In this document: positions 2,872 to 62,992 of the stretch, piece by piece
Layout of the letters: each line of letters begins with the position of its first letter
Numbering within the stretch: the first letter of the stretch is position 1
Origin: Paracoccus limosus
GTDB taxonomy: Bacteria; Pseudomonadota; Alphaproteobacteria; Rhodobacterales; Rhodobacteraceae
Direction: 5' to 3'
DNA: 64,000 bases
NCBI RefSeq assembly: GCF_009711185.1
Contig: NZ_WMIF01000001.1
Coordinates: 1-64,000, forward strand
Program-made: the position numbers and the translations under genes
The notes under the pieces: model-generated
Databases searched by the model: none
The model's input: only the letters and a program-made list of their open reading frames with translations
What the model was told of the DNA's origin: nothing

Positions 2872-3711
2872 ATGTCCAGCATTCTGACCAACAGCTCGGC
2901 CGTCGTCGCCCTTCAGACCCTGAAGAGCATCAACTCGAACCTGTCGAAAACCCAGAACGAGATCTCGACCGGTAAGACCATCAACAGCGCCAAAGACAAC
3001 GCTGCGCTGTGGTCGATCGCCAAGACGATGGAATCCGACCAGGATGTCGCCAGCACGATCCAGAAAAACCTGAACGTCGCTGCTGAAACGGTCGCCACCG
3101 CCCGCACGGGCGCCGAAGATGTTCTCGACAAGCTGAGCAGCATCAAGAAACTGATGGCGTCGGCAAACCGCAGCGATGCGGATTTCGCGAAGATCCAGAC
3201 CGACATCAACGAGCTGAAGGACGGCATCACGGCCACGATCGCCGGCACCCAGGCCAATGGCGTCAACCTGCTCAGCACCAATGGTGTGAACGGCGCAGCG
3301 ACCTATACTGTGCTCGGCTCGCTGGATCGCTCGGGTACGACCGTGACCGCTTCGTCGATCACCGTCACCTCGGTCGATCTGGAGGCCAATCTTGACCTGG
3401 CCAGCCTGACCGCCATCACCGACCAGGCGACGGCAACGACCGCGCTGGGTGAAATCGATGCGCTGATCACGATCGCGCAGGACGGTGCCACGGCGCTTGG
3501 CGCCAAGGGTTCGCGCATCGAGGCCCAGTCGAAGTTCGTCGGCAAGCTGGCGGATTCGCTGAAACTGGGCGTCAGCGCCCTGGTCGATGCCGATATGGAA
3601 GAAAGCTCTGCCCGCCTGCAGGCGCTGCAGACCCAGCAGCAGCTCGGCATTCAGGCCCTGTCGATCGCCAACCAGGCGCCGTCGTCGATCCTGTCGCTGT
3701 TCCGCGGCTGA
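2872..3711 (+). CDS. fliC: flagellin
   Basis: Filament structural protein exported by the flagellar type III system. The 279-residue product has both conserved flagellin ends: N-terminal D0/D1 (TNSSAVVALQTLKSINSNL, then Q-N-E-I-S-T-G-K at about 26-33) and C-terminal D1/D0 (ESSARLQALQTQQQLGIQALS, ending S-I-L-S-L-F-R-G). The variable middle is short, typical of compact Rhodobacteraceae flagellins. The ATG is preceded by a GGAG motif. The gene is followed by a strong hairpin and then flaF and flbT, which in this group control flagellin export and flagellin mRNA. Confidence 0.96.
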   Translation: MSSILTNSSAVVALQTLKSINSNLSKTQNEISTGKTINSAKDNAALWSIAKTMESDQDVASTIQKNLNVAAETVATARTGAEDVLDKLSSIKKLMASANRSDADFAKIQTDINELKDGITATIAGTQANGVNLLSTNGVNGAATYTVLGSLDRSGTTVTASSITVTSVDLEANLDLASLTAITDQATATTALGEIDALITIAQDGATALGAKGSRIEAQSKFVGKLADSLKLGVSALVDADMEESSARLQALQTQQQLGIQALSIANQAPSSILSLFRG

Positions 3712-4546: not shown

Positions 4547-5328
4547 CCTACAATGTTCAGCTTGGTTCGGGCGGCTATCTGGGTTGGAAGCTGCTTCAAC
4601 GCACCGCCGACCGCCAGCGCGCAGTCTTTGAGAAAGACCCGCAGATTCAGAACTCGCGCGACTATTTCGCGCAGAACATCGCCTCGGTCACCGAGGCCGA
4701 CGACCTTGTCTCGAACTACAAGCTGCTCAGCGTTGCGCTTCGCGCCTTTGGCCTTGATGACGACCTGAACAACCGGGCCTTCATCAAGAAAGTGCTCGAG
4801 GCGGATCCCAGCGATGGCAAGAGCATCGTTAACCGGCTGAGCGACAAGCGATACCTGAAACTCAACCAGGCATTCGGCTTTGGCTCGGGGGCGGCCGGTG
4901 ATCGCAAAAAGCTGAGCATCGCCAGTATCGCTGATCTTTACGTATCGCGCTCATTCGAAAAGAACATCGGCCAGCAGCACGAAGAGATCGAGCTGGCGCT
5001 GAATGCGCAACGAGAATTGCCGGGGATCATTGCGCGCAATTCCAGCGACAGTACGAAATGGTATCATATCGCGGCTTCGACTCCGCTGCGCAAGGTCTTT
5101 GAGGGGGCCTTCGGCTTCCCTGCCACTTTTGCCCGACTTCCTGTCGACCGGCAGGTGAGTGAGATGAAAACGGCGATGTCGCGGATGTTCGGCAGCCCGT
5201 CTCCCGCCGCGCTGTCCAAGCCGGAAAATATGGACAAGGTCATCAAAAGCTATCTGATCCGGTCGCAGATCAATGAAAGCGCTATTGCGACGCCCTATGC
5301 CGCAGCGCTGACGATCTTGCGGCGGTGA
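4543..5328 (+). CDS. DUF1217 flagellar-locus protein
   Basis: 261 residues, soluble and largely helical. The N-terminal part (LGWKLLQRTADRQRAVFEKD, then R-D-Y-F-A-Q-N-I) and the block ALRAFGLDDDLNNRAFIKKVLE (split here by its own context) are the signature of the DUF1217 family found in alphaproteobacterial flagellar loci. Its biochemical role is not established. It overlaps flbT by ATGA and ends the rightward flagellar unit. No catalytic motif is visible. Confidence 0.8.
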   Translation: MTYNVQLGSGGYLGWKLLQRTADRQRAVFEKDPQIQNSRDYFAQNIASVTEADDLVSNYKLLSVALRAFGLDDDLNNRAFIKKVLEADPSDGKSIVNRLSDKRYLKLNQAFGFGSGAAGDRKKLSIASIADLYVSRSFEKNIGQQHEEIELALNAQRELPGIIARNSSDSTKWYHIAASTPLRKVFEGAFGFPATFARLPVDRQVSEMKTAMSRMFGSPSPAALSKPENMDKVIKSYLIRSQINESAIATPYAAALTILRR

Positions 5329-41341: not shown

Positions 41342-42078
41342 AGGTCCAGCCTCTGCTTCAGCTCAATCATCGCCTCGCTGACGCGGGCGGCATCCAGCCC
41401 GCGCACGACCAGATTGGTGCCCCAGCCGGTCGGGTCCTGAAACGGGTAAGAGCCCAGCGACAGGTCGGGGAATTCCTCGGCCACGGCCTTCAGATCCTCG
41501 GCGACATCGCTTTCACCACGCCGCACCTCGACCGTCAGCGATTGCGTCGGGCGACCGCCGGGCAGGCGCGGCACCAGCCATGCCACCATGGCACGGAACA
41601 CCTCGGGGACGCCGGCCATGACATGGGTATTGCCGATGGAAAAGCCCGGCGCGCCCGAGAATGCGTTTTCGATCAGCGTCGCACCAACCGGGATGCGCGC
41701 CATGCGCAGCCGGTTCGGCGTCAGCTCGGTGCCCATGCGGTCGCAGCGCGCCTGCAGGATGGCGCGCGCCTCGGGGTGGATCTCGACCGTGGTGCCATGC
41801 GCATCGGCCACTGCATCGGCGGTGATGTCGTCATGGGTCGGGCCAATGCCGCCGCTGGTGAACAGCAGATCATAGGCCCCGCCCAGCGATTTGTCGAAGG
41901 CGCGGATCGCCGCCACGATCTGGGCATGGTCATCGGCCACGACGCGGATCTCTCGCAGGTCGAAACCGGTGGCGCTCAGCACGCCAGCCAGATGATGGGC
42001 ATTGCCCTCACGCGTGCGGCCGGACAGGATTTCGTCCCCGATGACTAGAATTGCGGCGGTGGGATTGTCGGATTGCAT
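41338..42078 (-). CDS. CinA-like molybdopterin-binding (MoCF) domain protein
   Basis: 246 residues. The MoCF_biosynth fold is shown by I-L-V-I-G-D-E-I-L-S-G-R-T at 10-22, D-L-L-F-T-S-G-G-I-G-P-T-H-D-D-I-T-A near 67-85 and N-R-L-R-M-A-R-I-P. This is the N-terminal COG1058 domain of CinA, without the nicotinamide-mononucleotide deamidase domain; COG1058 proteins are ADP-ribose pyrophosphatases. It is divergent from map and coupled to the GNAT gene. Confidence 0.88.
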   Translation of the reverse strand: MQSDNPTAAILVIGDEILSGRTREGNAHHLAGVLSATGFDLREIRVVADDHAQIVAAIRAFDKSLGGAYDLLFTSGGIGPTHDDITADAVADAHGTTVEIHPEARAILQARCDRMGTELTPNRLRMARIPVGATLIENAFSGAPGFSIGNTHVMAGVPEVFRAMVAWLVPRLPGGRPTQSLTVEVRRGESDVAEDLKAVAEEFPDLSLGSYPFQDPTGWGTNLVVRGLDAARVSEAMIELKQRLDL

Positions 42079-42191
42079 GGCACGCTCCTCGCGGTGCTCT
42101 CAGGATCGGGCAAAGGTATAGGCATGCGCGCGGGGCTGGAACAAGTGGCCTTGCGGGTCTATCTGTGGGTTCAAGCAAAGATGAGGACGCG

Positions 42192-42995
42192 ATGAACGAC
42201 GCACATCAGACCCGCGAGGGGATCCGTATCCATGACCCGCAGGACTATGAGGGCATGCGGGCGGCCGGACGTGCGGCCGCGCAGATCCTTGACGAGGTCG
42301 GCGCATTGGTCCAGCCCGGCGTTACCACCGGGGCGCTGGATGACTTCATCCGCGGCCGCGTGACCGAGCTTGGCACGATCAGCGCCACCATCGGTTACCG
42401 CGGCTACCAGCATGCCAGCTGCATCAGCGTGAACCATGTCGTCTGCCATGGCATCCCCGGCGACAAGATCCTGGCCGAGGGCGATATCCTCAACATCGAC
42501 GTGACGGTGATCCTCGATGGCTGGTATGGCGACAGCTCGCGCATGTATGTGGCCGGCAAGCCCAGCGTGAAATCGCGCCGCCTGATCCAAGTCACCCATG
42601 ACAGCCTGATGAAGGGGATCGAGGCCGTCCGCCCCGGCGCCACCTTCGGCGACATCGGCTGGGCGATCCAGTCTTATGTCGAGGCCAATCGCATGTCCGT
42701 GGTGCGCGACTTCTGCGGCCACGGCCTCGGTCGTACCTTCCACGCGCCGCCGAACGTGCTGCATTTCGGCCGCCCCGGCAAAGGCCCGGTGCTCGAAGAG
42801 GGCATGTTCTTCACCATCGAACCCATGGTGAACCTCGGCCGGCCGGAAACCAAGGTCCTCGCCGACGACTGGACCGCCGTCACCCGCGACAAGTCGCTTT
42901 CGGCCCAGTTCGAGCACTCGATCGGCGTCACCGCCGATGGCTGCGAGATCTTCACCCTGTCGCCGGCCGGGCGCTTCTATCCCGATCTGGACTGA
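42192..42995 (+). CDS. map: type I methionine aminopeptidase
   Basis: Removes N-terminal methionine from nascent proteins. 267 residues. The pita-bread metal ligands can be seen in I-D-V-T-V-I-L-D-G-W-Y-G-D-S-S-R (two Asp), G-H-G-L-G-R-T-F-H-A-P-P (His), F-F-T-I-E-P-M (Glu) and Q-F-E-H-S-I (Glu), with substrate His in S-V-N-H-V-V-C-H-G-I-P. The start at 42192 follows a GAGGA motif. Confidence 0.96.
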   Translation: MNDAHQTREGIRIHDPQDYEGMRAAGRAAAQILDEVGALVQPGVTTGALDDFIRGRVTELGTISATIGYRGYQHASCISVNHVVCHGIPGDKILAEGDILNIDVTVILDGWYGDSSRMYVAGKPSVKSRRLIQVTHDSLMKGIEAVRPGATFGDIGWAIQSYVEANRMSVVRDFCGHGLGRTFHAPPNVLHFGRPGKGPVLEEGMFFTIEPMVNLGRPETKVLADDWTAVTRDKSLSAQFEHSIGVTADGCEIFTLSPAGRFYPDLD

Positions 42996-44310: not shown

Positions 44311-45429
44311 TCAAGCATTAGCTGACAGGTTTCCATTCTTGGTGCTGATGGTTTCCAAATTTTGTTCCTTGTTCGTGCTTGACAGGATGCGCTTGCGGTC
44401 AGCCGCCTTGCTGTATCTCTGCACCTCGGACAGGCTTTCATGACCAGTCCACGCGGCTATCTGGTGAGCTGTCGCGCCAGCTTCTGCCAGCGCCATTGCT
44501 CGGGACTTTCGCAGACCATGAGCAGATTTCCCTGCGATCCCGGCATCAGCGGCGGCCTCAGCAAACCAGCTGCTGAACGCCTTTTCCGAGCGAGGCTTTC
44601 CGCGTGCCGTGACCAGCCACGTCATGTGGCGAGGTGCATGGCTTATCGCCGCCATAAGCAGATCCAGATCAGCCTGCATGTCTAGCGCGAAATCGGGCAG
44701 GGCACGGTTGAATGGTATTGATACCTCACTCCCTGTCTTGCGCTGCCTGAAGCTCAGCCAGCCGTCCTTGGTCACCATTCCAGGGCCAATCCGCACTGAA
44801 TCTGATGCTCTGGCGGCGGTCCAATAGATCAACTCCATCGCGAGACGTTGCGGCTTGGTCACCGGCCAATGCTCACGGAATGCCGCTATTTCCTCATTTG
44901 TCCACGGCTTGAAGCCGTCGCTCTTCGCGGTCTTTGCCTTTTCGACTTCGGCAGACGGATCATTTGCGATTAGCCTGGACTTCTTGGCCCACACGCACAG
45001 GCTGCGCCACACTTTTCGCCGGTTGTTGGCGGGATGGGGTTGCAGCTTTGCGATATCAGCTTCGATGTGTGAGGCGCGCAGGTCGGAAAGACGTGCCGTG
45101 CCCCATGTGTCGGCTATCTTACTGAGGTGCCCACGCCGTTGCTGCCGGGTGGTGATAGCCATTCCGCAGAATTCAGCACTTAGCTGATAGCTGACTATCG
45201 CTGCTGCGATACTTCCTGTCGCGACCTTTCTCCCCTGCTTATCAGTCTTTGCTGCTGCGAGCGCAGCGGAATATGCCATCAGGAATTCCGCGCTGTCTTT
45301 GGGGGCGTCCGGCAATCTCACCAGCTTGTGGCCGGGCACTGCCAGATAGGTAAACCGGCGGCCATTCGGCTTGGTTATGATCTTGACGTGCTTGAGCCTC
45401 ACCGCATTGCCCGCATGATTTCGTCGCAT
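44311..45429 (-). CDS. int: tyrosine recombinase (phage integrase)
   Basis: Site-specific recombinase for prophage integration and excision. 372 residues. N-terminal DNA-binding part (to about 160) and a catalytic domain with Arg I in W-T-A-A-R-A-S-D-S-V near residue 205, H-G-L-R (His-x-x-Arg) near 305, W-T-G-H near 326 and the nucleophile Tyr in E-V-Q-R-Y-S-K near 336. It is transcribed toward the tRNA. Its start overlaps the excisionase-type gene by 31 bases. Confidence 0.95.
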   Translation of the reverse strand: MRRNHAGNAVRLKHVKIITKPNGRRFTYLAVPGHKLVRLPDAPKDSAEFLMAYSAALAAAKTDKQGRKVATGSIAAAIVSYQLSAEFCGMAITTRQQRRGHLSKIADTWGTARLSDLRASHIEADIAKLQPHPANNRRKVWRSLCVWAKKSRLIANDPSAEVEKAKTAKSDGFKPWTNEEIAAFREHWPVTKPQRLAMELIYWTAARASDSVRIGPGMVTKDGWLSFRQRKTGSEVSIPFNRALPDFALDMQADLDLLMAAISHAPRHMTWLVTARGKPRSEKAFSSWFAEAAADAGIAGKSAHGLRKSRAMALAEAGATAHQIAAWTGHESLSEVQRYSKAADRKRILSSTNKEQNLETISTKNGNLSANA

Positions 45430-45724: not shown

Positions 45725-45969
45725 TTTCTGGCCTCCCGATCAGCGTGTTTCAGCGGCAGGGCGAGGATAGCATCACGAGAAACCCATCCAGAGACCTGAT
45801 CATTGCGGTCGCAAACATCCGCCGCCCTCTGCCGCATGTCCCGCTCTGCGTTGGACAGCATGGATCGCGCCTCGTCCCGCTCGGCCTCGGCCTTCTCGGC
45901 GCGCTGGGTCAGGCGGGCGATCTCGGCTTGGGCGATGGCAAGCAGATCTACGGTTTCTGAATGTTTCAT
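45721..45969 (-). CDS. phage small coiled-coil protein
   Basis: 82 residues. Residues 8-50 form one strongly heptad-patterned, Glu/Ala/Arg-rich helix (LLAIAQAEIARLTQRAEKAE...), followed by a short globular end. No family is recognised. It overlaps the PAPS-reductase-like gene by ATGA upstream and the small ORF by ATGA downstream. Confidence 0.65.
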   Translation of the reverse strand: MKHSETVDLLAIAQAEIARLTQRAEKAEAERDEARSMLSNAERDMRQRAADVCDRNDQVSGWVSRDAILALPLKHADREARK

Positions 45970-46967
45970 TCGCACAGTCCATATTGAGATGAGCATGACA
46001 GCGCCTCGTCCTCGGCGAACGCGGCTTCGAGCAGGTTGAACTGGCGCCCGCCTCGATCCGTGCGCGCCCATTCTGCCACGTCGCGGGCGGTCGGCCATGC
46101 GACCTGCGCCGAGGCGGCGTCGCGCTCCTCACGATCATTGATCTTACTGATGCGGCGCGCGTGAGCAGCCCCCTCGGGCGTCACATCAGCGGCGAAGAAT
46201 GTAGCGCGCTGACGCTTGCTGGCTTCGGCGCAGATCGCCTCCCATTCTGAAATTCGCTCGAAAGCCTCGGGGAAGCGGATCGCAATGGCACGGATTTCGC
46301 CCTTGTTGGCGTTGATGCAGGGGAAGCAGCCGACGCGCCCCATGCCTTGAAGATAGAGCGGGTTCGGGTCGAGGCCGTGCGCGGCGGCATAGCCGAACAC
46401 GTTCTCGGCCGACCAGTGGATCAGCGGGCGATAGAACCGCATGGCGTGCTGGCCCGGCGTTCTGACCGTCTGCCACATCGGCGCATTGCGGCGGGCTAGG
46501 CTCTCCGCACGGCGCACGCCCAGCCATTGCGCCACGGGGCCGGCCTGTCGCGCGGGGTCGATCACCTGCTTGCCGATGGGTTCGGATTTCAGAAACTCGG
46601 TGCAGAACTGCACCCGGCGAGATGGGAACCTGCCTTTCCACAGATACAGGTCGAGAAACGGAATGCCGGTCGGCTGGAGCGCGGCGATTGCCCGATCCAC
46701 CCATGCCTGCGGCACGCCTTCCGCCGCCCAATGCTCGGCGATGTAAGCGCGCTTCTTGTCCATGCGCTCGGTGAAATCCGCGCGGTAAATCTCGACCTGC
46801 GGACCGCCGGTTCGGTCGCACAGACGCTCGGCATATTCAATGGTGATCGGATGCTCGTTTCCGGTGTCGGCCATGACGGCCCGGAACGGAACACCGCGCT
46901 GAAGCGCCAGCAGGTAGCAGGCCGTGCTGTCCTTGCCGCCGCTGATGTTAACGATGTGCTGGATCAT
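45966..46967 (-). CDS. phage PAPS-reductase-like (adenine nucleotide alpha-hydrolase) protein
   Basis: 333 residues. The PP-loop S-G-G-K-D-S is at 9-14; T-E-F-L-K-S-E-P and a C-F-P-C pair near residue 217 (with a further Cys in the region) suggest a metal or Fe-S site. This is the phosphoadenosine-phosphosulfate-reductase-like family frequently carried by phages, related in fold to DndC, which takes part in DNA phosphorothioation. Phage members are not known to act in sulfate assimilation; a role in nucleic-acid modification is my inference. Confidence 0.85.
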   Translation of the reverse strand: MIQHIVNISGGKDSTACYLLALQRGVPFRAVMADTGNEHPITIEYAERLCDRTGGPQVEIYRADFTERMDKKRAYIAEHWAAEGVPQAWVDRAIAALQPTGIPFLDLYLWKGRFPSRRVQFCTEFLKSEPIGKQVIDPARQAGPVAQWLGVRRAESLARRNAPMWQTVRTPGQHAMRFYRPLIHWSAENVFGYAAAHGLDPNPLYLQGMGRVGCFPCINANKGEIRAIAIRFPEAFERISEWEAICAEASKRQRATFFAADVTPEGAAHARRISKINDREERDAASAQVAWPTARDVAEWARTDRGGRQFNLLEAAFAEDEALSCSSQYGLCE

Positions 46968-53559: not shown

Positions 53560-53916
53560 TTATGCGAGAATCTGGTTCAAAGCTTCTTTGTCGCGCTTGG
53601 AGATGAACAGAGTGTTCATCTGCGCGGACAGTATGATCGGCCTGTATCTTCTATGGACGGTCCCGACAATACCATCGCGCCGGATGGCCTCATCGATCTC
53701 AAACTCATCCAAGACGAGAATACCGCATTCAATGTGGCTGTCGTGGTGGAGGAACGCGTTGTCGTCCCTTGCGATAGGCACGCATGGGCGCGGAGTATCC
53801 TTGGTGTTGATCCGCATGAACCAGCCCATCTCGTAGGATAAGCAGACATACATCTTGCGCTTCTGAGGGCGCGTGTTCAGATCGAACACCCAGATGACGT
53901 CCAGAAGCCCTAGCAA
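53560..53916 (-). CDS. unrecognised partner of the Panacea protein, candidate toxin
   Basis: 118 residues from a TTG start at 53916 (next to the antitoxin stop; no good ATG is available before residue 22). Features: R-K-M-Y-V-C-L-S-Y, G-W-F-M-R-I-N-T-K, P-C-V-P-I-A-R-D-D-N-A-F-L-H-H-D-S-H-I-E-C, and a C-terminal K-R-D-K-E-A-L-N. Beta-rich, with conserved-looking H-D-S-H and Cys positions; the pattern could be an SH3-barrel PemK/MazF-like fold, but I cannot confirm this. The position directly after a Panacea-domain antitoxin makes toxin the likely role. Confidence 0.55.
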   Translation of the reverse strand: MLGLLDVIWVFDLNTRPQKRKMYVCLSYEMGWFMRINTKDTPRPCVPIARDDNAFLHHDSHIECGILVLDEFEIDEAIRRDGIVGTVHRRYRPIILSAQMNTLFISKRDKEALNQILA

Positions 53917-53919
53917 CAG

Positions 53920-54480
53920 CTACAGCCTTACATGTCGCGCGGTTTCTTGGATGAAATTTATCGCCTCTTCCGTGTCAGGGCGGCCTTCAATCATATCCTC
54001 ATAGCTCATCGTTCCGCCATTGGCTGCCTGCCAGTCTCGGCCATGGGTGGCGGCGGTTCTCTCTGTAAACGACATCCCGACCGAGCGCCGAAACGCAACC
54101 TCAAGATGATCCATTTCGCTCTGAGCAAAGGCATCCATAACGACCGGCTCATTGCTAATCACGCGCAACTTATAGCCGTCCAGCTTCCAAGGCAGATCGT
54201 CGCGTCCAAGCTCCCACATTCGCAAGGCTTCACCCTTGATGATCTCGTATATTTCCAAGGGGACAGGGCCGAACTTCATGGCCCGGTAGGTAGCGCCAAA
54301 GATTGGCTGCAAATGCTCGTTAAGGTGGGACTTGTCAGCAAAATAGGCCGTTTTTAGTGCGGCGTGCAGATCCACAGGCACGCCTTGAGAGACCATCCAG
54401 TGGACGGCGTGCAAGGCCTTTTCTGCTGCGAAACGATAGCGCGCTTTCATGCCGTGAACATAGCTAGTTCGACTTGACAT
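53920..54480 (-). CDS. Panacea-domain (DUF4065) protein, likely antitoxin
   Basis: 186 residues. The DUF4065/Panacea (SocA-like) core is present: A-L-K-T-A-Y-F-A-D-K-S-H-L-N-E-H, then G-A-T-Y-R-A-M-K-F-G-P-V-P-L-E-I-Y (the hallmark 'Y-x-A-x-x-x-G-P-V'). Panacea domains neutralise a wide range of toxin types by direct binding. The ATG at 54480 is assumed; Met11 (54450) is an alternative start with an upstream promoter-like A/T stretch. The gene lies in a LexA-box-led operon, after the 70-residue gene. Confidence 0.8.
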   Translation of the reverse strand: MSSRTSYVHGMKARYRFAAEKALHAVHWMVSQGVPVDLHAALKTAYFADKSHLNEHLQPIFGATYRAMKFGPVPLEIYEIIKGEALRMWELGRDDLPWKLDGYKLRVISNEPVVMDAFAQSEMDHLEVAFRRSVGMSFTERTAATHGRDWQAANGGTMSYEDMIEGRPDTEEAINFIQETARHVRL

Positions 54481-54482
54481 TG

Positions 54483-54695
54483 CTAGTGGTCATATGCTTG
54501 GCCCACGCCCCTCAACCTCTCCGCCGCCTCCCTGACCACCTCAGCCACCGCCGGGTGCGATTTCATCGCCGCCGCCTCATACGCCTCCGCTATTCCAGCG
54601 CGCCCCTCTGGGGTCTTGAGCATCTCGGCAGGCATCTGCACCAGCAGATCCAGCAGCGCGGCGCGCAGGGCTTCCTCGGCGGTCTGGCTGGCCAT
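54483..54695 (-). CDS. 70-residue protein directly behind a LexA-type box
   Basis: Helical, Ala/Glu-rich (EALRAALLDLLVQMPAEML, then EVVREAAERLRG), no membrane segment. AAAGGG lies 7 bases upstream of the ATG. It is the first gene after the SOS-type box at 54733-54747, followed 2 bases later by the Panacea gene. Because the repressor in this phage has no self-cleavage domain, this protein is a good candidate for an SOS-induced antirepressor; no family is recognised. Confidence 0.55.
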   Translation of the reverse strand: MASQTAEEALRAALLDLLVQMPAEMLKTPEGRAGIAEAYEAAAMKSHPAVAEVVREAAERLRGVGQAYDH

Positions 54696-54732
54696 CACCT
54701 ATCCCTTTCGTCAGGTCGCGCGCCTACTAAAT

Positions 54733-54747
54733 GTTCCCTTAATGTTC
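54733..54747. promoter_or_regulatory. LexA (SOS) box, GTTC-N7-GTTC
   Basis: GTTC CCTTAAT GTTC, the exact direct-repeat LexA operator known from Rhodobacter and other alphaproteobacteria, 38-52 bases upstream of the 70-residue gene. The flanking A/T-rich DNA (minus strand GATAATAAAAG) suggests a promoter overlapping the box. Confidence 0.7.
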
Positions 54748-54827
54748 TTTTATTATCCGGGTGGATTCGGGAGGCGGCTTGGATCGGTTGGAATTATCAG
54801 CAAGCGAACATCAGATGCTGCTCGCCA

Positions 54828-55157
54828 TCATCGCGCTGACCCCGGAGCCCGGGGAAGGTTCAAGATTGCCTCTGCAAGACGCTCTTGCTCGTCTTGGTCG
54901 TATTGCGACAGAAGCTCACGAAGGCGTGGAACAATAGAGACCTGCGGCGCGTCGCCGGTCAGCTGATCTAAGGTTCTGTCGAGCGCTCGGGCCAGGGCGT
55001 GCGCCGTTGACAGCTTAGGGCTCTGCGACTGGCCGTCCAGAATGTCCTGCACGGCGCGGCGGTTCATATCAACCTTCTTCGACAAGCTCGCGGCGTTGAA
55101 GCCCTGAGCCTGCATCTCGGCTTTCAGCCGCATTCTGAACACGTCGCTCACATCCAT
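54828..55157 (-). CDS. phage repressor (XRE HTH, CI-like) without a cleavage domain
   Basis: 109 residues: HTH at about 22-45 (A-A-S-L-S-K-K-V-D-M-N-R-R-A-V-Q-D-I-L-D-G), then a short C-terminal helical part (L-R-E-L-L-S-Q-Y-D-Q-D-E-Q-E-R-L-A) probably for dimerisation. There is no S24 peptidase domain, so RecA-stimulated self-cleavage is not possible. The start ATG (55157) has no Shine-Dalgarno site and lies about 7 bases after a putative -10, suggesting a leaderless message as for lambda cI. Divergent from the Cro-like gene. Confidence 0.85.
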   Translation of the reverse strand: MDVSDVFRMRLKAEMQAQGFNAASLSKKVDMNRRAVQDILDGQSQSPKLSTAHALARALDRTLDQLTGDAPQVSIVPRLRELLSQYDQDEQERLAEAILNLPRAPGSAR

Positions 55158-59458: not shown

Positions 59459-59755
59459 ATGGACAGTAAACAAGTGGCCCCTGCTGCAAAGCGCCGGCCG
59501 CCGAGCGCCGGAAAGGGTCGCCCGAAGGGGTCGCAGAACAAGACCACGGCGCTGCTCAAGGACGCGATCTTGCAGGCAGCGGAACAGGCCGGCGGCGGCT
59601 CGGGGCTCGTGGGTTATCTCACTGCTCAGGCCATGGCCAACCCGGGGCCGTTCATGTCGTTGCTGGGCAAGGTTCTGCCCATGCAGATCCAGGGCGATCC
59701 CGACGCCCCTATCGTCGCCGTGATTGAGCGCCGCATTGTCAAAGCTGGTGATTGA
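59459..59755 (+). CDS. candidate small terminase subunit
   Basis: 98 residues. N-terminal A-G-K-G-R-P-K-G-S-Q-N-K-T-T-A is an AT-hook-like, basic DNA-binding motif frequently seen in proteins encoded immediately before the large terminase; the C-terminus is helical then beta (P-I-V-A-V-I-E-R-R-I-V). It overlaps the large-subunit gene. The identity is by position and DNA-binding motif only. Confidence 0.55.
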   Translation: MDSKQVAPAAKRRPPSAGKGRPKGSQNKTTALLKDAILQAAEQAGGGSGLVGYLTAQAMANPGPFMSLLGKVLPMQIQGDPDAPIVAVIERRIVKAGD

Positions 59756-61055
59756 CACCGCCGAGGTGTTTCTGCCGCTGCTGGAGCCAGCGCGATACAA
59801 GGGCGCCCACGGCGGGCGAGGTTCGGGCAAATCGCAGTTCTTCGCCGGCCTTCTGGTCGAAGACAGCATGGCCGCGCCCGGCGAAATGGGCGAGGGCCTC
59901 AAGTCGGTCTGCATCCGGGAGGTGCAGAAGTCGCTCAAGCACTCGGCCAAGAGCCTGATCGAATCCACGCTGCGCCGGCACGGGCTTGGCGAGCGCGACG
60001 GGTTCAAGATTTTCAACGAGGTCATCAAGACCCCCGGCGATGGTCTGGTAATCTTTCAGGGGATGCAGGATCACACCGCCGACAGCATCAAGTCGCTGGA
60101 AGGCTTCCACCGAGCATGGACCGAGGAAGCGCAAAGCCTGTCGAAGTTCTCGCTCGACCTGCTCCGCCCCACGATCCGCTGGGAGGACGCTCAGCGCGGG
60201 CTGGCATCGCAGCTGTGGTTCAGCTGGAACCCCCGCCGCAAGACTGATGCGATTGAGTTCCTGCGGGGCGCATCCGCTCCACCCGATGCATGCGTGGTCC
60301 GGGCAAACTGGTCTGACAACCCTTGGTTCCCCGGCGTGCTGGACGCGGAGCGCGCATCAACGCTGGCCGCCGACCCGGACGGATACGACCATATCTGGGA
60401 GGGTGGCTTTGCCACCGCCACGACGGGCGCCTATTTCGCGCGCCACCTTGCCGAGGCGAAGGCGCAGCGCAGAATCGGAAATGTCGCGGCAGATCCGCTG
60501 ATGGAGGTCCGGGCCTACTTCGATATCGGCGGCACCGGCGCCAAGGCAGATGCGACCGCGATCTGGCTGGTGCAGTTCGTCGGGCCGGAAATCCGCGTGC
60601 TGGATTATTACGAGGCGTCGGGCCAGCCGCTCGCAACGCATGTGAAATGGCTGCGTGAGCGCGGGATCAGATCGGTTGTGCTGCCCCACGACGGTGGCAC
60701 GCACGACAAGGTTTTCTCAGTCAGCTACGAAAGCGCGCTGTCCGAGGCCGGGTTCAACGTCATCGTGGTGCCGAACCAAGGCCGGGGCGCAGCGGCGGCC
60801 CGCATTGAGGCGGTGCGCAGGCTGTTCCCGCAGATCTGGTTCAACGCCGCCACTACCGAGGCCGGGCGCGATGCTCTCGGCTGGTATCACGAGAAGCGGG
60901 ACGAGGCGCGCAACATCGGCCTCGGACCGGACCACGACTGGTCCAGCCATGGGGCCGATGCCTTTGGCCTGATGGCCGTCGCGCATGCTGACCACGGGCC
61001 GGCGCCCGACGTGTCGAAATACATGAAACTGACAGGCGGGCATTGGCTGGCATGA
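59724..61055 (+). CDS. terL: terminase large subunit
   Basis: DNA-packaging motor and nuclease. 443 residues from the TTG at 59724; a GTG at 59748 is an alternative start, and both lack a good ribosome site, so coupling with the upstream gene is likely. Walker A G-G-R-G-S-G-K-S at 30-37, Walker B F-H-R-A-W-T-E-E-A-Q (about 128-137), R-I-coupling S-W-N-P and the nuclease D in Y-F-D-I-G-G-T-G-A-K-A-D-A-T. PBSX-type family. Confidence 0.92.
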   Translation: MSAALSKLVIDTAEVFLPLLEPARYKGAHGGRGSGKSQFFAGLLVEDSMAAPGEMGEGLKSVCIREVQKSLKHSAKSLIESTLRRHGLGERDGFKIFNEVIKTPGDGLVIFQGMQDHTADSIKSLEGFHRAWTEEAQSLSKFSLDLLRPTIRWEDAQRGLASQLWFSWNPRRKTDAIEFLRGASAPPDACVVRANWSDNPWFPGVLDAERASTLAADPDGYDHIWEGGFATATTGAYFARHLAEAKAQRRIGNVAADPLMEVRAYFDIGGTGAKADATAIWLVQFVGPEIRVLDYYEASGQPLATHVKWLRERGIRSVVLPHDGGTHDKVFSVSYESALSEAGFNVIVVPNQGRGAAAARIEAVRRLFPQIWFNAATTEAGRDALGWYHEKRDEARNIGLGPDHDWSSHGADAFGLMAVAHADHGPAPDVSKYMKLTGGHWLA

Positions 61056-62992
61056 CTGACGATGAAAAAATCATCGCCTTGGCCCGTCGCCGCATGGACG
61101 ATGCCGCCTCGGCCGATGCGCTGAACCGCGAGGAAGCGCAGGACGACCTTCGCTTTCTGATCGGCGATCAGTGGCCGGAGGAAGTTCGCGCGCAGCGCGA
61201 GCTGGAAGGCAAGCCCTGCCTGACGTTCAACGGTCTGTCGCAGTTCGTGCGCCGGGTGACGGGCCAGATCCGCGCCATGAACCCGGCCATCCGGGTGATC
61301 CCGGCAGACGGCAGCGCATCGCCCGATGTGGCCGAGATCATGGCCGGGATGATCCGGCAGATCGAATACGAGTGCGACGGCACCAGCGTCTATGAGCGGG
61401 CGGGCGAATTGGCGGCGGCTTGCGGCATCGGGAACTTCCGCATCCGGGCGGATTACGCCGATCCCATGTCGTTCGATCAGGAGTGCCTGATTGAGCGAAT
61501 CCACAACCCGTTCGCGGTGTTCTGGGATCCGATGGCCAAGCAGCCCGACCGCAGCGATGCGCGTTTTTGCTTTATCGCAGACGACATGCTGGTCGAGGAT
61601 TTCAAGGAGCAATTCCCCGACGCGCGCGTGATGGACGCGACCACCGACCACCACATGCTGGGGCTCGCGCACTGGCTGCATGGTGAGCGGATCACCGTCG
61701 CCGAATACTACTGGATCGAGGATCGCGAGGTCACCATCGGGCTGATGGCCGACGGCAGCGTGGTGGAAAGCCCAGCCGCGCCGCTCGCCCCGATCAAGAC
61801 GCGCAAGACCAAGGTGCCGGCGGTCAAATGGGCCAAGATCAGCGGCGCCGAGGTACTGGAAGGCCCGCTAGACGTGCCGACGCGCTACATGCCTGTGGTC
61901 GCGGTCACCGGCGAGGAATGGCCAGTCGGCGAGGCTCTGTATCGGTCGAGCGTGATCCGGTTCGCGAAGGACGCGCAGCAGCTCTACAACATGAGCCGCA
62001 CCGAAAACGCCGAGGTGATCCGGCTGCAATCCAAGGCGCCCTATATCGGTACGCTCAAGCAGTTTCAGGGGCTGGAGTCGGTCTGGGCCAAGGCCAACAG
62101 CACGACCGCGCCGTTCATCCCCTACAACCCCGACCCGGCGGCGCCGGGTCGACCCCAGCGCGAACAGCCGCCGGTGCCATCGCAGGCTTTCCTGAGCGAG
62201 ATCCAGCTGGCCGCCGAGGACATGAAGCGCACCACGGGCATTTACGATGCCAGCCTCGGGGCTAAATCGAATGAGACGAGCGGCGTTGCCATCCAGCAGC
62301 GCCAGCAGGAGGCTGAGCAGGCGAATAGCGTCTACGCCGACAACGTGGCCAAGGCAGTGGCGCGCGCTGGCCGCATCTTGGTCGACATGATCCCCCGGGT
62401 CTATGACACGCAGCGCATGGTCCGCATCCTCGGTGAGGACGACGAGGAAAAGCTGGTCACGATCAACAGCGTCGCTCTGACGCAAACCGGGGTGCAGCCG
62501 GTCAATGACGTGACCATCGGCAAATACGATGTGCGCCTGTCGGTCGGCCCGAACTACCAGACCAAGCGAGAGCAGGCCGCCGAGGGCATGGCCGCATTCG
62601 TGCAGGCTTACCCGGCCGCCGCGCCGCTGATCGGCGACCTTTACGTCAAAGCGCAGGAGTGGCCCGAAGCCGACCGCATCGCCGAGCGCCTGAAACGCGC
62701 CGTGCCACCGAACGTGCTGGGCGAGGACGATCAGGACCAGTCACCAGAGGCGCAGGCGCAGCGTCAGCAGGCGATGCAGCAGCAGGCCCAGCAGGCGCAG
62801 ATGCAGCAAGGCGCCGCGCAGATCGACTTGGCAGAAAAGCAGGCGCGGGCGCGCAAGGCCGACGCCGATGCCGTCAAAGCTGAGGCCGAGGCCGAAAAGG
62901 CCCAGCTTGAGCTGATGCAGATGAGGGCCGCCATGGCCATCGGAATGCCGGTGAACCCGGTTCTAGCCCCGCAGGGCATCCCCACCAACTGA
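61052..62992 (+). CDS. phage portal protein, P22-like
   Basis: Forms the dodecameric DNA entry port of the head. 646 residues from 61052 (ATGA overlap with terL). P22 gp1-like features: D-D-L-R-F-L-I-G-D-Q-W near 30-40, L-T-F-N-G-L-S-Q-F-V-R-R-V-T-G, and R-F-A-K-D-A-Q-Q-L-Y-N-M-S-R-T-E (the conserved portal core). The last 100 residues are Gln/Ala-rich and coiled coil, like the P22 barrel. Confidence 0.93.
   Translation: MTDDEKIIALARRRMDDAASADALNREEAQDDLRFLIGDQWPEEVRAQRELEGKPCLTFNGLSQFVRRVTGQIRAMNPAIRVIPADGSASPDVAEIMAGMIRQIEYECDGTSVYERAGELAAACGIGNFRIRADYADPMSFDQECLIERIHNPFAVFWDPMAKQPDRSDARFCFIADDMLVEDFKEQFPDARVMDATTDHHMLGLAHWLHGERITVAEYYWIEDREVTIGLMADGSVVESPAAPLAPIKTRKTKVPAVKWAKISGAEVLEGPLDVPTRYMPVVAVTGEEWPVGEALYRSSVIRFAKDAQQLYNMSRTENAEVIRLQSKAPYIGTLKQFQGLESVWAKANSTTAPFIPYNPDPAAPGRPQREQPPVPSQAFLSEIQLAAEDMKRTTGIYDASLGAKSNETSGVAIQQRQQEAEQANSVYADNVAKAVARAGRILVDMIPRVYDTQRMVRILGEDDEEKLVTINSVALTQTGVQPVNDVTIGKYDVRLSVGPNYQTKREQAAEGMAAFVQAYPAAAPLIGDLYVKAQEWPEADRIAERLKRAVPPNVLGEDDQDQSPEAQAQRQQAMQQQAQQAQMQQGAAQIDLAEKQARARKADADAVKAEAEAEKAQLELMQMRAAMAIGMPVNPVLAPQGIPTN

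Follow-up and report, generated by a model that had tools for sequence, protein, structure and literature searches.

Temperate phages whose short repressors cannot be cleaved through RecA need another sensor of DNA damage, and that sensor is often unknown. The question is raised by a prophage in a 64,000-nt stretch of Paracoccus limosus DNA (contig NZ_WMIF01000001.1, positions 1 to 64,000; hereafter the window), which carries exonuclease VIII and HNH genes between its integrase and terminase genes (Table 1). Its repressor gives Pfam matches above the cut-off to HTH families only and none to a peptidase domain, so self-cleavage is not expected; the description given in the earlier note, of an HTH with a short tail unable to cleave itself, thus holds. 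A phosphoadenosine phosphosulfate reductase-like gene, a common phage passenger, lies near the integrase (45966-46967; phrog_424, 2.5e-63).

Table 1. Features of the prophage and its immunity region (window coordinates)
Feature	Position	Strand	Details
Integrase	44311-45429	-	phrog_1, 7.2e-28; the prophage's left end is presumably close by
PanT candidate, MazF/PemK fold	53560-53916	-	118 aa, TTG start; AF2 pLDDT 95.9
PanA, SocA/Panacea-domain antitoxin with GPV motif	53920-54480	-	PF13274, 40.7 bits (cut-off 25.7)
70-aa ORF, taken as variable cargo	54483-54695	-	37 nt from box; no relatives found
Predicted rightward promoter	54716-54745	+	-35 TCGCGC 54716-54721 (weak); -10 TAATGT 54740-54745, inside box
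LexA-type SOS box GTTC-N7-GTTC	54733-54747	.	exact direct repeat GTTCCCTTAATGTTC; leftward reading GAACATTAAGGGAAC
Shine-Dalgarno-like GGGAGG of small ORF	54769-54774	+	
Small ORF, unannotated	54779-54937	+	52 codons, TTG start; candidate SOS-induced antirepressor, frame-specific conservation
Short CI-type repressor, HTH and tail	54828-55157	-	109 aa; Pfam HTH_3 3.8e-6, HTH_26 2.8e-5
Terminase large subunit	59724-61055	+	phrog_3717, 1e-43
Portal	61043-62992		after terminase; phrog_156, 1.2e-150

The SOS box and the short repressors

An SOS operator had been claimed beside the repressor gene, and an exact GTTC-N7-GTTC repeat is present there, nearly matches the box of the host lexA gene and recurs in related prophages. 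By count alone the motif is not significant: the window holds two bare copies against 1.05 expected, at least two occur in 30 of 100 shuffles, and the whole genome has 109 against 86 for the reversed control. The box is convincing because of its position and its relatives, not its count. The second exact copy in the window (42819-42833), within an ORF adjoining the prophage (42051-42995), is probably due to chance.

The host lexA box, GAACATTAGCGGAAC, lies 47 nt upstream of the lexA start and is identical to the window box in its leftward reading at 13 of 15 bases, the other two differing. A lexA match was obtained in 37 of 41 genomes, and in all 30 same-family loci examined one or two GAAC-N7-GAAC boxes precede it by 35-131 nt, GAAC-first towards the gene in every case. 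GAAC-first boxes also occur at the host recA, at a uvrD-like gene and at two imuA-like genes (names assigned by eye except for lexA and recA). Judged by the lexA loci, the orientation of the window box suits the leftward genes. Two further kinds of evidence were tried and rejected. A weight matrix from 41 lexA-box spacers placed the window 23rd among the 100 genome sites listed, scored the recA box spacer below the median random spacer and was dropped because it did not discriminate. The leader motif CCTGMCGARA beside the box failed as a common promoter: it matches 102 IMG/VR stretches and 8 of 295 genomes, and among 61 sites inspected by eye the same promoter could be recognised in no others than the window, L001 and L002.

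Two IMG/VR prophages, L001 and L002 (L002 being locus L121 of Paracoccus homiensis), encode PanA proteins 95% and 75% identical to that of the window. In both, a short repressor is followed by the box, by other small genes and then by PanA and its partner; the gene directly after the box is thus exchangeable while box and repressor are retained. By eye, the repressors of the window, L001 and L002 have no likeness beyond the HTH. In IMG/VR the window-type repressor matched L202 (71% identical), where the box lies some 60 nt beyond the repressor stop, and L203 (65% identical), where no exact box occurs. Scans with repressors of the L001 and L002 types led to L218 and L222-L227, each of which has its box 30-90 nt beyond the stop. 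L267, distantly related to the window repressor, has a box identical to that of the window together with an antisense ORF. Agrobacterium phage Atu_ph08 encodes a 101-aa protein, gp72, taken as a repressor from its 38% match to the L001 repressor; a box stands 105 nt past the gp72 stop, with an unannotated ORF in the same layout. The Atu_ph08 paper names gp1 and gp65, not gp72, and reports that attempts at UV induction of lysogens failed (PMC6630229).

Counting the window, 20 loci have a box behind the repressor stop. The L002-type family, widened to 20 IMG/VR and eight genome loci, has the box in 14 of 28 and in none of the eight genome loci. Over the 28 loci L228-L255, 16 boxes fall in the 3,360 nt directly after repressor stops versus five in 87,608 nt elsewhere. 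Seven repressors with a C-terminal half of the cleavage type, as judged by eye, have no box near the stop (L209, L210, L215, L216, L219, Pyei1 and RcapNL); the short repressor of L220 has none either. No L001-type repressor was matched in 230 genomes of the class, no window repressor in plasmids, and neither the L002-type repressor of L230 nor its small protein in phage records. Three or four repressor types (including L001/L218, L267 and Atu_ph08) have the arrangement of box and antisense ORF in common.

The small antisense reading frame

The ORF on the plus strand beside the box had been missed in the earlier note. It starts 31 nt from the box (a GTG start at 54761 is also possible) and shares 110 nt (54828-54937), tail to tail, with the 3' end of the repressor gene. 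All 20 box loci, the window included, have an antisense ORF of 38 codons or more whose start lies 13-36 nt from the box, the start codons in 14 of the 20 having been picked by a rule favouring a Shine-Dalgarno (SD) sequence, ATG and a given spacing to the motif; at random positions such an ORF is met with a loose SD in 7.6% and with a strict SD in 1.0%. The readout for SD-like sequences, available for 13 of the 20 loci, shows one in 12 (the window, L001, L202, L218, L228, L230, L231, L232, L234, L236, L258 and L267) and none at L229. L232 has two boxes, of which one served for measuring the gap and the other for scoring the promoter. Among L002-type loci, 26 of 28 have a small ORF with a motif like LG-x-x-LN-x-x-FD, which is absent from L250 and L254. 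The ORF also occurs in the boxless loci L203, L205 and L206 and, less clearly, L207 and L265; that of L220 is of doubtful kinship.

Coding was assessed on codons outside the repressor gene only, by mean pairwise BLOSUM62 score per frame. Over 25 loci the ORF frame scores 1.28 and has no stop in 266 codons, which is partly built in, since an open frame containing the motif was required for a locus to be included. Scores in the remaining five frames range from -0.68 to 0.68, with 2-21 stops. Since the loci had been anchored on the motif, the test was repeated on the codons before it (24 loci), and the ORF frame again stands apart (1.13, no stop in 225 codons, versus -0.84 to 0.54 and 2-17 stops), with codon-position differences of 0.602/0.477/0.695, a pattern that coding sequence should show. 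Five hand-anchored loci of the window type give 1.10 in the ORF frame versus -0.34 to 0.00 in the others, and addition of the distant L207, left out of the main window-type test, gives 0.47 versus -0.64 to -0.30. The coding tests leave out L250 and L254, which lack the motif; the 25-locus test leaves out L239, whose small protein is identical to that of L249, and both the 24-locus test and the promoter test leave out L241, a near copy of L240.

Promoters were scored with hand-set -35/-10 weights based on an E. coli-type consensus in 19 of the 20 box loci. The mean rightward score is 18.5 versus 14.3 (sd 1.9) at random positions, a value reached in none of 5,000 resamplings, and the mean leftward score of 14.8 (P 0.15) is no better than random. 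The rightward score of the window itself, 16.8, is weak; as a group of 19 loci, the predicted promoter points to the small ORF.

The small protein of the window is modelled by AF2 as two helices and a connecting loop (mean pLDDT 81, six sequences). Six of the small proteins found no match in PHROGs, 25 plus seven sequences found no Pfam match of weight, and by eye those of different repressor types are not alike. Mimicry of the repressor, with an hhalign probability of 1.5% (E 0.033), is no more than an idea; by eye, the helical hairpins resemble the repressor tail and LGVDLNWLF resembles the end of an HTH domain.

A comparison of operator-like repeats in 14 loci, 11 of them boxless, brought out three boxless loci, L245 (1990-2006, ATCCGAAATTTTCGGAT), L247 and L251, with such repeats before both the small ORF and the repressor gene, as if the repressor controlled the gene of its own putative antagonist. 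Fels-1 FsoA is a known repressor-controlled case (PMC3121763).

The candidate switch and its rivals

The small ORF at the repressor tail is probably the gene of a LexA-controlled antirepressor, encoded antisense over the 3' end of its target's gene, with a possible antisense RNA in addition. The box would be the LexA operator of a rightward promoter serving this gene, which LexA would silence in the lysogen. Cleavage of LexA upon DNA damage would allow the protein of about 52 residues to be made, and this protein would disarm the peptidase-less repressor and induce the prophage without repressor cleavage; the transcript, being antisense to the repressor message, could reinforce the switch. The sequences themselves show the box and that it recurs behind short repressors, as well as the conserved frame and the promoter direction of the group; from these we infer LexA binding, SOS induction, binding of the small protein to the repressor and the resulting induction of the prophage. 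Against this reading stand the orientation of the box, the weak -35 of the window, the TTG start and the presence of the box in only 14 of 28 L002-type loci.

LexA-controlled antirepressors of short repressors are known (Gifsy GfoA/GftA, Tum of phage 186 and AntC of N15; PMC3121763), and, as proposed here, each is a small protein whose gene, under a LexA box, couples induction to the SOS response. The Gifsy repressor is likewise short and without a cleavage domain; the Gifsy gene lies outside the immunity region (PMC3121763), whereas here the ORF abuts the repressor gene and lies across its 3' end on the opposite strand. No match of the small proteins to the Gifsy, Tum or AntC antirepressors was obtained via PHROGs and Pfam. 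The lambda OOP transcript, which likewise has a LexA site and runs antisense over the 3' end of a gene for a phage regulator, is a small RNA directed against cII (PMC5869508), in contrast to the lysogenic repressor as target and the conserved protein frame here. The TF-smORF modules of Silpe et al. resemble the candidate in that sequence-unrelated small proteins inactivate their own cI, but a phage transcription factor drives them, independently of SOS (PMC10432266). In Pseudomonas phage Fc02, olg1 and gene 10 are also small opposite-strand overlapping genes of the lysis-lysogeny region; they differ in that the two overlap one another, upstream of the repressor gene, and act in superinfection exclusion, and the account in PMC9936078 describes no LexA control of them. 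No antisense-encoded or overlapping LexA-controlled antirepressor was found among the titles and abstract openings listed from the open-access literature. The best reading of the proposed switch is a LexA-antirepressor switch in a new form, with an element of lambda OOP.

If this is true, the place to find the answer for a set of alphaproteobacterial phages would be the opposite strand at the repressor tail, where two genes would overlap tail to tail with the product of one antagonising that of the other, an arrangement that would explain why annotation missed the small gene. A more tentative extension, to which we lean somewhat less than to its contrary, is a general alphaproteobacterial class of unannotated prophage SOS switches in which each non-cleavable repressor would be backed by a private antisense antirepressor under LexA control; one transcript would both encode the inhibitor and run antisense, the layout would be common to several repressor types, and some members would use the repressor operator instead.

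In the reading above, the conserved gene and the promoter are weighed above the box orientation, and divergent control is possible. Joint control of the small antisense gene and the leftward cargo from a single LexA box is unlikely on balance, yet it is the best placed of the alternatives. In 5 of 14 loci the first leftward ORF (at least 40 aa) begins 25-64 nt from the box, the distance in the window being 37 nt, and the host genome provides a case (L158, C23:12955-12969) in which a LexA box stands between an imuA-like gene and an opposite ORF; in the remaining 9 of 14 loci, however, the distance is 125-325 nt, and the group of loci lacks a leftward promoter signal. The divergent ORF of L158 contains MCNLYN, by eye like SRAP/YedK proteins, and the two genes possibly have an SOS promoter in common.

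Less probable still is an SOS product that acts as RNA, through convergent transcription or antisense pairing over the repressor 3' end, the ORF having little or no role. The 110-nt overlap in the window would allow it, and lambda OOP, which overlaps the end of cII by 52 bases and has a LexA site, can abolish CII activity (PMC5869508). The frame, however, is conserved outside the overlap while nucleotides vary; in five loci with a shorter repressor (L245, L247, L251, L253 and L255) the whole conserved motif lies outside the repressor gene; and repressor protein already made would persist.

The earlier note had read the box as the control of a leftward three-gene unit 38-52 bp downstream of it, with the 70-residue protein as antirepressor and the PanA-PanT pair under the same SOS control. 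The ORFs and the distance (37 nt between) are as described, and the outline of a LexA-controlled antirepressor beside a peptidase-less repressor is upheld; its assignment to the 70-residue protein is most likely wrong. The orientation of the box, as at lexA, the good SD of this ORF 37 nt from the box and comparable close leftward genes in L001 and L121 speak for such a unit. The 70-residue protein, however, found no relative but itself in IMG/VR, phage records and 294 other genomes of the family (a weak DnaJ match, E 0.012, is below the cut-off), and in related prophages its place is taken by other genes. An all-against-all comparison of ORFs in 11 loci, up to 3.3 kb after the repressor or as far as the sequence reached, revealed no leftward ORF common to the seven L002-type loci (L121 and six with repressors 65-82% identical to its own), which speaks against a conserved leftward antirepressor; the widest sharing of any leftward ORF is 3 of 11 loci, and the leftward promoter score points the same way. 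This leftward reading is improbable, and the 70-aa, PanA and PanT genes are taken as exchangeable cargo.

The first leftward gene of L222 has a relative 0.8-1.7 kb downstream in L225 and L227. L202 (4540-5088) and L001 (4659-4892) encode by BLAST a common 'DWAD' protein after the box despite their different repressors, each gene preceded by a membrane-like ORF, alike by eye. Downstream of the window-type repressor of L203, a 90-aa protein (4649-4921) resembles Cas2 by eye.

The Panacea pair

The pair consists of a real PanA and a MazF-fold partner. The GPV motif of PanA (G71-P72-V73) is invariant in eight sequences, and the model of the PanT candidate has MazF-mt3 (5hk0) as best Foldseek match (E 0.016, probability 1.00; VIA Z 11.3, rmsd 2.5, 96 residues aligned). 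The candidate has no Pfam match; among 22 members of its family no match is common to two. A partner gene accompanies 21 of 29 PanA relatives, directly downstream in 19. The Panacea-type pair named in the earlier note stands. In the 2.5 kb upstream, or as far as the sequence reached, a box is present in 4 of the 29 relatives and absent in 25, so SOS control is not a rule for PanA-PanT. In the window the pair could be transcribed by read-through from the repressor gene or the box region. Beside immunity genes it is most likely, by prediction, a toxin-antitoxin pair carried as an addiction or defence passenger; no PanA was found in plasmids.

A Panacea domain with GPV and a small MazF-fold partner are common to PanAT/SocAB and the window (PMC8832971), and the PanTs of P. 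moraviensis and B. ruminantium are predicted to be MazF-like (Kurata et al., PMC8832971); the partner family of the window differs in having no Pfam match of weight, and its function is predicted. A CI-like repressor gene with a toxin-antitoxin pair behind it, in the same orientation and inside the immunity region, also occurs as paaR2-paaA2-parE2 in CP-933P (PMC8630535), where the proteins are different and the main text mentions neither LexA nor antisense. That the pair is itself the inducer, with PanA acting on the repressor in the manner of SocA, a ClpXP adaptor, is very improbable: the Panacea domain is present and SocA is a proteolytic adaptor (PMC8832971), but the pair occurs in 3 of 11 box loci (within 3.3 kb, the flanks of most others being too short to tell), the 25 boxless relatives count against it, and ClpXP and Lon are not needed for PanA neutralisation as described in PMC8832971.

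Some PanA loci show other arrangements. GTTC-N7-GTTC lies about 65 nt before panA in Roseomonas nepalensis (L132, 5901-5915) and in a Hyphomicrobiales MAG (L148, 2685-2699). In prophage L003, panA (2898-3653) stands directly behind lysis genes (endolysin, holin-like and spanin-like by eye), with the partner gene disrupted after about 10 residues. The usual order differs in the gammaproteobacterium AqS3 (L143), with the partner upstream of panA, and in L137, with the partner 2.6 kb distant.
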